Shown: positions 1-4,078 of the stretch, one piece after another | Numbering within the stretch: the stretch's first letter is position 1 | Layout: each line of letters opens with the position of its first letter | DNA from: Chitinophaga pinensis | Lineage (GTDB): Bacteria; Bacteroidota; Bacteroidia; 2-12-FULL-35-15 | Assembly: GCA_945885475.1 (NCBI GenBank) | Contig: CAMCYR010000035.1 | Location: forward strand, 1-33,603 | DNA length: 33,603 nt | Reading direction: 5' to 3' | Position numbers and translations under genes: made by a program | Notes under the pieces: model-generated | Told to the model about the DNA's origin: nothing | The model's input: the letters and a program-made list of their open reading frames with translations, nothing else | The model's database searches: none

Positions 1-109
1 TTTGCCCCCACCATTAAATAGGTAAAATTACTTTGAAATTAGTATTTTTAGGTTCCCTTTTGCGGGGGCTGTTTTAAGCGGAATGGTGGGGTCTGAAAAA
101 TTGAAATTT
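1..109 (+). repeat. Repeat A, copy 1 (inverted-repeat-ended element)
   Basis: Nearly identical to 2683-2790, with only a few substitutions and indels. Its ends form an inverted repeat: GCCCCCACCATT at 4-15 matches the reverse complement of AATGGTGGGGTC at about 82-93 with one mismatch. The size (~90 bp) and terminal repeats resemble a MITE or an IS end. No transposase is recognisable, and the left flank is outside the window, so target duplication cannot be tested. Confidence 0.7.
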
Positions 110-271
110 CCAACAATTTCAAAAATATTAGAATATGATTTTTTTAGGCTTTATCTCTCATCAAATGTTGATGAAAGTAAAGAAATTGAGCGATTGCGAG
201 TAGAGAATGCCTTACTTCGTGAAGTAAATATGTTACTAAAAAAGAAATCCAAAAAACAGTCTTTACATTAG
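83..271 (+). CDS. Doubtful 62-aa ORF beginning inside repeat A
   Basis: I do not recognise this protein. Its start codon lies in the right terminal repeat of element A. The C-terminal half has leucine-zipper-like spacing (EIERLRVENALLREVNMLL), reminiscent of the coiled-coil part of IS3-type OrfA proteins, but this is too short to assign. It may be a remnant of a transposase reading frame or a chance ORF. The stretch from 272 to 462 after it contains nothing I can identify. Confidence 0.2.
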   Translation: MVGSEKLKFPTISKILEYDFFRLYLSSNVDESKEIERLRVENALLREVNMLLKKKSKKQSLH

Positions 272-462
272 TGATCATAACTTTAACTAGATTTGGTGAC
301 TAGCGACAGTTCTCAGCCTATTGTGGCTTAGTGCCTTATACTTATCAAAAAACGGGAAATATAGCCTAAAGATATTGCTTTTAAGCGACAGCCCCTCGTT
401 TAGAAGAGATGTATATAATTTCGGCTCTTCTGGAAGTGAAATTTCGACTTTAATAGCTGAGA

Positions 463-590
463 TTATATACTTCAAGTTTTTGAAAATCGAACATTTCTAT
501 ACTTTAAGAGTGAGAAACACAATGAGAATGAAAAAAAATCAGAGTGCGAAACTTCGCTCTCGCTCTGTTTCTCACTCTGATTTTGTACTC
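463..590 (-). repeat. Repeat B, copy 1: hairpin plus start of a four-helix-bundle gene
   Basis: On the minus strand this repeat reads: hairpin (584-535), a short leader, ATG at 494, then the ten codons MFDFQKLEVY. After these the frame diverges and stops within four codons. MFDFQKLEVY is a typical N-terminus of four-helix-bundle (23S rRNA intervening-sequence, IVP) proteins. The same block occurs at 2811-2929. The repeat begins with the 16 bp core TTATATACTTCAAGTT (463-478), also present at 965-980. It is therefore a separated 5' end of a gene whose body lies at 652-980. Confidence 0.75.
535..584 (-). terminator. Conserved 12-bp-stem hairpin within repeat B1
   Basis: Arms 535-546 (AAAATCAGAGTG) and 573-584 (CACTCTGATTTT) are perfectly complementary over 12 bp with a 26 nt loop. 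A-rich and T-rich ends give it the look of a bidirectional intrinsic terminator. The loop is itself partly self-complementary and can pair with AGAGTGAGAAACA at 507-519, giving an alternative fold. The same structure is at 2879-2928. Confidence 0.55.
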
Positions 591-651
591 TACGGGTTGG
601 ATTTATCGAACTTTTTGGATGGTTTTCAGAAACTTGAAATTCTTCTGTTCG

Positions 652-945
652 CTATGAAAGGTTTTTAATCATCGCATAAAGAATTCTTGAAAGCTCATCT
701 GCTTTAGCAATAAATGCAGCAAATTCTTCCTTTTGTAATATTCCCTGATCGCACAAAATATCCAAAACGGCTACACATTCAAATACTGATCCTCGAGCGG
801 TGGTGAAATAGTTTTTTCTATCTGCCTTGGAAAATTTCCCGGACCCTTCAGCAATATTTAATGCAATACTAAATGATGCTCGGCCTAATTGATCTTTAAC
901 ATGCGAATCCGGTTTAACTTTAACTATAAAGCTTTTGCAATCCAA
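652..945 (-). CDS. Four-helix-bundle protein (23S rRNA IVS/bAvd-like), start missing
   Basis: This is the four-helix-bundle family found in 23S rRNA intervening sequences and related to the Avd proteins of diversity-generating retroelements. The signature is the helix LGRASFSIALNIAEGSGKFS followed by ARGSVFECVAVLDIL, and a final helix ADELSRILYAMIKNL. The cellular role of stand-alone copies is unknown; binding of nucleic acid by the oligomeric barrel is the usual proposal. The only start here is TTG at 945. Family-like sequence continues upstream in frame to 980 (QLEVYKKAKVFH), but no ATG precedes the stop, so the native start has been lost. The missing start appears at 494-465. No 23S rRNA gene is in the window, so this is not an rRNA-embedded copy. 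Possibly untranslated as it stands. Confidence 0.7.
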   Translation of the reverse strand: MDCKSFIVKVKPDSHVKDQLGRASFSIALNIAEGSGKFSKADRKNYFTTARGSVFECVAVLDILCDQGILQKEEFAAFIAKADELSRILYAMIKNLS

Positions 946-1068
946 ATGAAAAACTTTTGCCTTTTTATATACTTCAAGTTGTTTTCGGTTGGGGGCTATA
1001 TTTTACAGACCAAAAAGATGATGATTTTAGTTGCATCGAAAATATAATACATGGTTCAATATAACAGC

Positions 1069-2442
1069 TTATTGATTTCCACAGTCCTGTGCACATGTCT
1101 TTTTACAATATTTTATACTTGAGCTTACACCGCCACTGTCATGAAAGCCCATTGATTTTAATAACGGGCCATATACATCAAATGTTGGTTTTTGGTTGCT
1201 GTAAGCGCCATTGTAATCATAACCCCATCCATATTGTGGGTTGAAAAAAGATCCACAACATACACATTGTCTTTGCCCGCCTCCTGAACTTACTGTCTCT
1301 TGTTTTCTAACTTCTTCTTTTTCTTTTATAGCTAAATCCACCCCTTTATCAGCAGCTAGGTTAAGCTTTTCTTTGTATGTAGAATTGCTTGCAACTACGC
1401 CGAAACCGCGCTTATAGCATAATGCAAGCGGGTAAATAGCTTCAACAGAACCCTTCTCAGCCGCTTGTGAATAATTAACGAAAGCATTGTTAGGATCGAT
1501 AGTAGTACCCCTGCCGTTTTCATAAGCCAAACCCAGCAAATAGATTCCATAGGGGGAGCCCAACTCTGCGGATTTTGACGCATAATTAAAAAAAAGTTTA
1601 TCATCTGCTTTACAACCCTCACCATTAATGGTCATATAGGCCAAAGATCCATAAACTATTGCAAGCAAGTCTTTTCTATCAAAATCACTATTTATTACTT
1701 TCTGATAGTAAGTGTATTTATCATTTTTATCATCCGTAGTTTTAGCATAGTAGAACATTGAGTATGAACTGCCTTCATCAGCAGCCTTCTTATAAAGTAG
1801 CAAAGCGCTGTTTTTATCATATTCATAACCGTTAAACTTCCTAATCAGGAATACAGCCTTCATTTGACACCAAAACCAGTCCTCTTTACTAACTTCTTCT
1901 TCAAGTCCTTTCTGCACAACATTAATCTGATTCGTTTCATTAAAAAATTGGTTGGAGAGGGCTATTACTCTCCAATCGGATGAATTCCTAAGTGTAATAA
2001 ATATATTGTTAGCTGCTAAAGAATCGGCATCTCTAAAATATGAATAACCCAAAAGCGCAGCTGAATATTCACTTGAAAGATTTCTAGCATTTTCTAAACT
2101 CTCATTGTCGAAATGGCCTGTGCTTTTAAATTGGGTTAAAGCTTTCTCAATAAGGGAATTACGATATAAAAAAACACCTGTTATGCCAGCAAAGAGAAGG
2201 GTAGCTAGAGAGAGACAAACTAATACTACCTTTTTATATTTGCGAATCTTTTTAGAGATGTTCGGCATTGCGGAAGGTGCTTTTTTCAACTTATGTACTT
2301 CCGCCTCTATAAACATATCCAACTCATCAACATCTTGCCCTAAAGCTATTCCCTTGCGATGAAGTATTTCTTTGTCTTTTTCGGTGATTTCCCCTTTTTG
2401 AATAGCGAAATCAAGAAGTTGTTTTAATTCTTGGTGTATCAT
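1069..2442 (-). CDS. Sel1-repeat membrane protein with Cys-rich C-terminus
   Basis: 457 aa. Residues 1-52 form a charged helical module (LLDFAIQKGEITEKDKEIL) common at the N-terminus of Bacteroidota membrane proteins. A single membrane segment lies at about 70-93. It is followed by Sel1/TPR-like repeats, clearest as AYMTINGEGCKADDKLFFNY, LGLAYENGRGTTIDPNNAF and LALCYKRGFGV, which usually build protein-binding solenoids. The last ~65 residues hold CVCC and a CxxxCxxxC-type cluster rich in Gly, Tyr and Asn; metal binding or disulfides are possible but unproven. It stands alone, with its own promoter at 2555-2584 and repeats on both sides. Precise function unknown. Confidence 0.75.
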   Translation of the reverse strand: MIHQELKQLLDFAIQKGEITEKDKEILHRKGIALGQDVDELDMFIEAEVHKLKKAPSAMPNISKKIRKYKKVVLVCLSLATLLFAGITGVFLYRNSLIEKALTQFKSTGHFDNESLENARNLSSEYSAALLGYSYFRDADSLAANNIFITLRNSSDWRVIALSNQFFNETNQINVVQKGLEEEVSKEDWFWCQMKAVFLIRKFNGYEYDKNSALLLYKKAADEGSSYSMFYYAKTTDDKNDKYTYYQKVINSDFDRKDLLAIVYGSLAYMTINGEGCKADDKLFFNYASKSAELGSPYGIYLLGLAYENGRGTTIDPNNAFVNYSQAAEKGSVEAIYPLALCYKRGFGVVASNSTYKEKLNLAADKGVDLAIKEKEEVRKQETVSSGGGQRQCVCCGSFFNPQYGWGYDYNGAYSNQKPTFDVYGPLLKSMGFHDSGGVSSSIKYCKKTCAQDCGNQ

Positions 2443-2554
2443 ATTTAGTAAAATAATTTAAATTATTTGATTTTATTTATACCTTTTAAACATTATATAT
2501 TATCTATCTAATAAAGTTATAAAGAAGTATAGGTGAATTAATTTGTATACTAAA

Positions 2555-2584
2555 CAAATATATAACAATTATTAGTAATACAAA
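2555..2584 (-). promoter_or_regulatory. Bacteroidota-type promoter for the Sel1 gene
   Basis: On the minus strand TTTG (2584-2581) is followed after 18 nt by TATATTTG (2562-2555), matching the TTTG/TAnnTTTG pattern. The predicted leader to the ATG at 2442 is about 105 nt and very AT-rich. Apart from this and repeat A2, the 2443-2682 gap shows nothing else. Confidence 0.55.
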
Positions 2585-2682
2585 ATTGACATCAATTCAA
2601 TATGTTGCAAATTTGTCCAAGAGAATAAATTCGTTACCTTACTAGAAATTCCGCACCGAGAGCCCCCACTTGACCACCAATT

Positions 2683-2790
2683 TTTGCCCCCACCATTAAA
2701 TAGGGAAAATTACTTTGAAATTAGTATTTTTAGGTTCCCTTTTGCGGGGGCTGTTTTAAGCGAAATGGTGGGTCTGAAAAAATGAAATTT
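2683..2790 (+). repeat. Repeat A, copy 2
   Basis: Near-identical to 1-109, with inverted ends CCCACCATT and AATGGTGGG. Similarity fades after about 2796. A separate GAGCCCCCAC just upstream (about 2660) echoes the internal GCGGGGGCT of the element. Here only ~20 bp separate A from repeat B, against ~350 bp at the first locus. Confidence 0.7.
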
Positions 2791-2810
2791 ACAACTAAGA
2801 GAGCTTATGA

Positions 2811-2929
2811 ATACTTCAAGTTTTTGAAAATCGAACATTTCTATAATTTAAGAGCGAGAAACAGAATGAGAATGAAGAAAAATCAGAGTGCAAAACTTCG
2901 CTCTCGCTCTGTTTCTCACTCTGATTTTG
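2811..2929 (-). repeat. Repeat B, copy 2: hairpin plus truncated IVP gene start, next to tRNA-Leu
   Basis: On the minus strand, directly after the tRNA-Leu 3' end, come the hairpin (2928-2879), ATG at 2838 and MFDFQKLEV. The frame then runs on into unrelated sequence across repeat A2. No gene body follows. The block matches 463-590 closely, including the alternative pairing partner AGAGCGAGAAACAGA (2851-2865). Confidence 0.75.
2879..2928 (-). terminator. Hairpin downstream of tRNA-Leu (repeat B2)
   Basis: A perfect 12 bp stem (2879-2890 with 2917-2928), a 26 nt loop and a T-run on the minus strand. It starts two bases after the tRNA discriminator base and could terminate the tRNA transcript. 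The same hairpin exists at 535-584 without a tRNA, so the terminator role is probably borrowed from the repeat. Confidence 0.6.
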
Positions 2930-3009
2930 TACCCGGGACCGGAGTCGAACCGGTACGGTTTCCCACAGGTGTTTGAGACCAGCGCGTCTACCAATTCCGC
3001 CACCCGGGC
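2930..3009 (-). tRNA. tRNA-Leu (CAA)
   Basis: An 80 nt class II tRNA. Acceptor GCCCGGG pairs with CCCGGGT (one G-T), the D-arm contains GGTAGA, the anticodon loop is CTCAAAC with CAA at 2975-2973, the variable arm is about 11 nt, and the T-loop is TTCGACT. CCA is not encoded. The anticodon stem has one T-T mismatch. It decodes UUG. Confidence 0.95.
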
Positions 3010-3034
3010 ATTTGTTATTTGGGAAAGCGGGGTG

Positions 3035-3065
3035 CAAAACTACCCAAATGTTTTTGATTCACAAA
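3035..3065 (-). promoter_or_regulatory. Promoter of tRNA-Leu
   Basis: The minus strand has TTTG (3065-3062), 19 nt, then TAGTTTTG (3042-3035), a full match to the Bacteroidota consensus. Transcription would start roughly 15-20 nt before the mature tRNA 5' end at 3009. Confidence 0.7.
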
Positions 3066-3091
3066 AAATATTACTTAAAATCGTCCGTTTT

Positions 3092-3123
3092 TTTGCCAAA
3101 AACTACATTTTTCATTACATTTG
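3092..3123 (+). promoter_or_regulatory. Promoter of prs
   Basis: TTTG (3092-3095), 20 nt, TACATTTG (3116-3123). It is divergent from the tRNA-Leu promoter and 19 nt from the prs ATG, so the leader is about a dozen bases. Confidence 0.7.
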
Positions 3124-3142
3124 CGACCCTTATTTAAAGGCT

Positions 3143-4078
3143 ATGAACTATAAAGTAAAATTGTTTTCGGGTTCCACGACACGAACTTTAGCTGAAAAAA
3201 TCAGCAAAAGCTACGGTCAGGAATTAGGCAAGGTATCTCTGCTTCGCTTTAGCGATGGGGAAATACAAACTTCTTATGAAGAAACAGTGCGTGGTAGCGA
3301 CGTGTTCATTATCCAATCAACTATGCCTCCTACCGACAATTTATTTGAGCTTTTATTGATGATCGATGCCGCTAAACGCGCTTCAGCTCATCAAATTATT
3401 GCTGTACTGCCTTATTTTGGTTATGCGCGTCAAGATCGTAAAGATCAACCACGTGTTGCTATCGGAGCAAAAATGGTTGCGAACTTATTATCTGCTGCAG
3501 GTGCTACACGCATCGTTACCATGGACTTACACGCTGATCAGATTCAAGGATTTTTTGATTTTCCTGTTGATCATCTATACGCCTCTTCTATCTTTTTACC
3601 CTATATCCAGAGTTTAAATCTGCCAAACTTAACAATGGCAGCGCCGGATATGGGCGGATCAAAAAGAGCAAATGCTTATGCGAAGTTTCTGAAATCAGAT
3701 ATCGTTATTTGTTACAAACAACGTGCGAAGGCAAACGTAATTGAAAGCATGACCGTTATTGGTGATGTGGAAGGGAAAGACATTGTATTAGTTGACGATT
3801 TAATTGACACTGGCGGAACACTTACAAAAGCGGCAGACATGATGCTAGACAGAGGCGCTACTAGCGTTAGAGCTGTTTGTACGCACGCTGTTTTATCTGG
3901 TAAGGCTTACGAAAACATAGAAAAATCAAGAATTGTGGAATTGGTGGTTACGGATACCATTCCATTGACGCAAGAATCAAGCAAAATAAAAGTATTATCG
4001 GTTGCCGAACTTTTCGGAAAAGTATTGCACAGTGTGCACAGCTTCGAATCTATCAGCTCCAATTTTATTGTATCATAA
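3143..4078 (+). CDS. prs: Ribose-phosphate pyrophosphokinase
   Basis: Makes PRPP from ribose 5-phosphate and ATP in the cytosol, feeding purine, pyrimidine, His, Trp and NAD synthesis. 311 aa from ATG 3143, the usual family length. The open frame extends upstream through the tRNA, but those codons are not coding because the promoter lies inside that extension. Visible motifs are FSDGEIQTSYEETVRGSDVF near the N-terminus, the flexible-loop region YFGYARQDRK with the conserved Arg-Gln, the metal-binding MDLHADQIQGFF, and the PRPP-binding loop VLVDDLIDTGGTL. Followed at 80 bp by rplY, likely the same or a neighbouring transcript. Confidence 0.97.
   Translation: MNYKVKLFSGSTTRTLAEKISKSYGQELGKVSLLRFSDGEIQTSYEETVRGSDVFIIQSTMPPTDNLFELLLMIDAAKRASAHQIIAVLPYFGYARQDRKDQPRVAIGAKMVANLLSAAGATRIVTMDLHADQIQGFFDFPVDHLYASSIFLPYIQSLNLPNLTMAAPDMGGSKRANAYAKFLKSDIVICYKQRAKANVIESMTVIGDVEGKDIVLVDDLIDTGGTLTKAADMMLDRGATSVRAVCTHAVLSGKAYENIEKSRIVELVVTDTIPLTQESSKIKVLSVAELFGKVLHSVHSFESISSNFIVS

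Follow-up and report, generated by a model that had tools for sequence, protein, structure and literature searches.

The window, that is, the whole stretch of 33,603 nucleotides that was analysed, contains a tRNA-Leu gene and pieces of a small four-helix-bundle gene, the body of which lacks a start codon. The features of this locus, ordered along the minus strand, are listed below.

2929..3009, minus strand: tRNA-Leu (CAA) gene, anchor of the element (ARAGORN; Rfam RF00005, 51 bits)
2839..2928, minus strand: copy B leader, terminator-like hairpin that begins at the tRNA end and can fold in a second way (96% identity with copy A; L115 alignment)
2811..2838, minus strand: putative original start of the split gene, ATG 2838-2836, MFDFQKLEV (L115 2819-3028 matches window 3019-2811)
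2811..2822, no strand: 12-bp duplication ATACTTCAAGTT, tRNA side of the insert (sequence; third member of repeat family D3)
981..2810, no strand: segment of 1,830 bp, most likely inserted, which splits the gene (absent from the intact relative L115)
969..980, no strand: 12-bp duplication ATACTTCAAGTT, body side of the insert (sequence)
652..978, minus strand: body of the four-helix-bundle gene (23S_rRNA_IVP), start codon lacking (PF05635, TIGR02436; 97% amino-acid identity to L115)
585..611, minus strand: tRNA-3'-end-like stretch GTTCGATAAATCCAACCCGTAGAGTAC before the second hairpin (sequence; similar stretches before or behind the unit at other loci)
495..584, minus strand: copy A leader, the second hairpin (inverted repeats I4 and I7)
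463..494, minus strand: second-copy start MFDFQKLEVY, broken off after ten codons (variants common to the G031 copies)
366..429, minus strand: stretch also found behind the gene in L115 (86% identity), which supports the in-line order

The sequence TTATATACTTCAAGTT is present at 463-478 and 965-980 in the same orientation, at a spacing of 502 bp. On the minus strand, 494-465 is translated as MFDFQKLEVY and continues with NLSY and a stop codon, and 978-652 gives LEVYKKAKVFH followed by the 97-residue body. Ahead of 978, the body frame contains no ATG, GTG or TTG and is open only until a stop; a complete reading frame with a start codon is lacking, and the start lies at 2838-2811, past the insert. 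The first-pass annotation, made from the sequence alone, had correctly placed the 16-bp repeats and both coding pieces, and had also recognized that the body has no start of its own and that a matching hairpin-led start lies 3' of it in the same phase.

From base composition, about 0.4 pairs of 16-bp repeats are expected in the whole window, and the repeat by itself would be weak evidence. Its meaning comes from the identical codon phase within a recognized protein family. Since the body matches both PF05635 (23S_rRNA_IVP; E 5e-23, 81.7 bits, curated cut-off 33.8) and TIGR02436 (E 1.5e-21, 76.7 bits, curated cut-off 24), the in-phase pieces reflect real homology. The LEV-coding stretch is present in three copies: in copy A (463), in the body (965) and in copy B (2807). 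The gene start belonging to the third of these, at 2811-2838, had been missed in the first-pass annotation. A stretch of 122 bp comprising hairpin, ATG and nine codons (467-588) recurs with 96% identity at 2811-2932, where copy B starts directly at the 3' end of tRNA-Leu, and once more at the end of contig C23. The spacing of 502 bp is the length of one unit of hairpin plus gene, and the direct repeat exists because a second hairpin and a ten-codon start stand behind the body.

An uninterrupted relative and the 1,830-bp segment

The partner of the window body in the tree is L115 (contig CAMAVS010000002.1); its protein is 97% identical in amino acids and four residues (ALNI) shorter, in frame. 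In L115, tRNA-Leu, hairpin, ATG and complete gene stand uninterrupted in line. L115 2819-3028 matches window 3019-2811, L115 3014-3332 matches window 984-653, and L115 3554-3617 matches window 429-366; with 981-2810 removed, the window has the same order and strand. The same kind of tRNA lies upstream in L115, but the genes upstream of it are different, and copy A is absent.

This collinearity makes it most likely that the window gene was once contiguous and that 1,830 bp then split it at codons 9-10. The original order on the minus strand would have been tRNA-Leu, hairpin B, ATG and complete gene. The segment would have entered at codons 9-10, together with a 12-bp duplication, leaving the start with the tRNA and moving the body 1.8 kb off; behind the body follow the tRNA-3'-end-like stretch, the second hairpin and a further copy of the gene, broken off after ten codons. 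The segment contains a Sel1-repeat gene (1069-2442, minus strand), which, among 36 genomes of the group, was found at full length in no other, and a MITE-like repeat at about 2642-2795. Neither recognized ends nor clear inverted ends are present, and at its left end the segment is single copy.

The first-pass annotation had proposed that the gene is assembled only on circularization, as a 502-bp element that is intact only in a circle joined across the two 16-bp repeats. The repeats are indeed in phase, and such a circle would hold one complete frame of 114 codons plus its leader; moreover, some relatives carry the tRNA end and the hairpin on both sides of the gene and could recombine. However, the whole gene is linear in relatives, the missing start is present at 2811-2838, copy A differs in lineage from the body, and the unit contains no recombinase. 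We rejected circular assembly on the intact in-line gene of L115 and regard it as highly improbable. The search for full-length hairpin-led copies, which the same annotation had suggested, found them intact in L115 and in most other relatives, where the gene is uninterrupted and linear.

Origin of the second leader and start

Copy B shares its leader variants with L115, and copy A shares its own with the two copies in the sister species G031. By its place in the tree, the body is of the L115 lineage, and so, by these variants, is copy B; copy A falls into the G031 lineage. This makes it most likely that copy A began a separate copy of the unit and does not represent the missing start of the body. 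In G031, the same hairpin stands at the same tRNA-Leu (L026) and an unbroken MFDFQKLEVYKKAKVFHLDFKSFIVK start is also present (L017); a G031 contig ends within the hairpin copy. We compared the orthologous tRNA-Leu across 15 genomes, and in 13 other congeners it is followed by a different sequence, mostly an ordinary terminator. In another congener (L035), a GIY-YIG endonuclease-like frame, read by eye only, lies soon after the same tRNA-Leu.

Truncated or repeated units are also found behind the gene in other relatives. L108 carries a hairpin and 14 codons in this position, L135 a tRNA end, a hairpin and 6-7 codons, and L074 is a tandem array of three units. A second hairpin behind the gene is present in L062, L065, L067, L071, L078, L085, L104 and L117, and the repeat clearly takes in the last nucleotides of the tRNA in L078, L082, L104 and L135. 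In a strict test, the tRNA end was repeated behind the gene in 4 of 47 loci with at least 20 of 24 matches, compared with 0.1% in controls. The tRNA-end repeat behind the gene is real, in a minority of loci.

The tandem array in L074 and the truncated second units in L108 and L135 would also agree with two full tandem units in the window that were reduced by deletions, the first gene losing its start and the second most of its length, with no insertion involved. Against this speak the start of the first gene, which survives 1.8 kb away at the tRNA together with a 12-bp duplication, and the lineage-specific variants in which copies A and B differ, and we consider such a history unlikely. The first-pass annotation had offered a related alternative, a tandem duplication that lost both outer halves. 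As a description of 463-588 (copy A) as the remains of a repeated unit this comes close, but it fails for the rest of the locus, where the start of the body survives at 2811-2838.

MITE-like repeats with GAGAGCCCCCACTTGACC-type ends were observed at window positions 1-114 and 2642-2795, at the end of C23 (L003) and in L023. The end of C23 repeats the junction of copy B, with the MITE-like repeat fused to the start of the four-helix-bundle gene; at the equivalent site of G031 (L023), the MITE-like repeat stands alone. The second occurrence of this junction in C23 is unexplained by a single simple insertion, and either recombination between repeats or assembly must have contributed to it.

An artifact of assembly or strain mixing, in which a MAG contig joins pieces of different copies, would likewise account for the arrangement in the window. 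The assembly consists of 84 contigs, and contigs end at these repeats in C23 and C35, as does C75 of the G031 assembly. Yet 463-3009 lies within one contig, copies A and B can be told apart by their own variants, and the order is the same as in L115, all of which makes an artifact very unlikely. An insertion into a once contiguous gene remains our preferred reading of the window locus.

A subfamily behind tRNA and tmRNA genes

A scan of GTDB genomes yielded 80 loci of this 23S_rRNA_IVP (S23p) subfamily, a number that includes near-duplicates and orthologues and does not stand for 80 independent events. A tRNA or tmRNA gene on the same strand ends 37-510 bp upstream in 53 of these 80 genes (Leu 29, Arg 10, Ser 7, tmRNA 4, Glu 2, Gln 1). 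In L075, L084 and L102, an upstream tRNA or tmRNA escaped the program or was truncated by a contig end but was recognized by eye; a few further loci have a tRNA-end-like stretch. By comparison, we examined 36 further family members, of which 29 were PF05635 genes from the genus and 7 came from this genome, and none had a tRNA in the flanking sequence retrieved, which extended to at most 1.5 kb. The window element has the same layout as the subfamily, with a tRNA on the same strand at most ~500 bp upstream and a hairpin between tRNA and ATG. On the tree, the target isotype clusters yet switches repeatedly (27 changes compared with 38.5 in shuffles), as expected if the units occasionally move between tRNA genes.

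Several loci show arrangements of their own. CP058707.1 carries two tmRNA genes on one chromosome with an element behind each (L126 and L137), and the two 1.16-kb regions are 96.6% identical. Tandem hairpin stretches upstream of the gene, resembling a small minisatellite, are present in L105, L107, L070, L076 and L097. In L125, L127, L131, L136, L110 and L124, two neighbouring tRNA genes of a single cluster (Ser-Pro, Arg-His, Arg-Lys) flank the gene; insertion inside tRNA operons is likely for genes placed in this way.

Three candidate explanations for the spread of the units were discarded. Help from a reverse transcriptase was rejected because such enzymes are not enriched in carriers (14 of 28, compared with 17 of 36 in the genus) and G000, the genome of the window, contains no PF00078 match. 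Phage or plasmid carriage was rejected since no relatives were found in viral contigs (IMG/VR) or in a phage set, and plasmids gave one distant match (36%). Transfer across phyla, suggested by L077 in a record titled Glaciecola amylolytica (CP034120.1), was dropped because L077 matches Flavobacteriales contigs at 77-85% DNA identity, in the unit as well as in its flanks; the organism name of this record looks doubtful, and it may be misnamed.

In most tRNA-linked loci, a strong hairpin stands just past the tRNA and is followed by a T run. The 5' arm of this hairpin can also pair with a stretch directly ahead of the ATG; in copy A of the window, the terminator arms are 567-584/535-552 and the alternative arms 553-578/507-532. 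Compared with dinucleotide shuffles, the alternative helix was better (p<=0.05) in 23 of 44 leaders. Copies A and B, L115 and G031 are among these, and the helix of copy B exceeded 200 of 200 shuffles. In an Rfam scan of window 1-3200, which returned tRNA only, the leader matched no family. From these pairings, it looks like an attenuator that would be fed from the tRNA promoter.

Relation to known elements

S23p/IVP proteins are known from 23S rRNA intervening sequences of Coxiella and Leptospira, with no known function (PMC4990558), and from rRNA insertions of CPR bacteria (PMC11270868). They are relatives of Avd, which has a related four-helix-bundle fold (PMC10053308). In the open-access literature (subscription journals were outside the search), we found nothing on tRNA-linked members of 23S_rRNA_IVP.

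The units described here share with 23S rRNA intervening sequences the protein family, a size of ~0.4-0.6 kb, the tie to a stable RNA gene, a scattered distribution and a protein without known function. They differ in that the unit stands behind the 3' end of a tRNA or tmRNA, not inside an rRNA, and in the terminator-like hairpin between RNA gene and ATG; the Rfam scan of 1-3200 detected no rRNA gene around the window element. Unlike Avd of diversity-generating retroelements, the window element resides in a genome in which no reverse transcriptase was detected. Integrative elements with attachment sites at tRNA 3' ends resemble the units in their position at tRNA and tmRNA 3' ends and in the repetition of the tRNA end behind the gene at some loci. 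In contrast to them, the unit measures only ~0.5 kb, the tRNA-end repeat is clear in a minority only, and the four-helix-bundle frame is the sole content, with no integrase in the unit. Transcription attenuators likewise combine a terminator hairpin with an overlapping alternative helix in the leader, but here the transcript would begin at the tRNA promoter, and the leader belongs to no Rfam family.

Taken together, the locus is quite probably a disrupted hairpin-led 23S_rRNA_IVP unit behind tRNA-Leu, split by an insertion of 1,830 bp and with the start of a second copy behind its body. It is a broken member of a tRNA-anchored variant, apparently undescribed so far, of a known family of proteins and elements. 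Most likely, the copy in the window is dead. In its intact relatives, transcription would run out of the tRNA gene and usually halt at the terminator hairpin, and the alternative leader fold would let it reach the gene. We also infer that the unit is mobile. More tentatively, S23p-type proteins might be general parasites of rRNA and tRNA genes: mobile units of ~0.5 kb would take up positions at the 3' ends of tRNA genes (Leu, Ser, Arg) and of tmRNA genes, be transcribed from the tRNA through a terminator that can be switched, and take the tRNA end along, which we regard as possible rather than probable.

The window copy is a broken gene, and its relatives matter more. The strong tie of the subfamily to tRNA and tmRNA 3' ends, together with the terminator-like leader, opens a testable route to what these proteins bind and to how S23p/IVP genes spread and get switched on.
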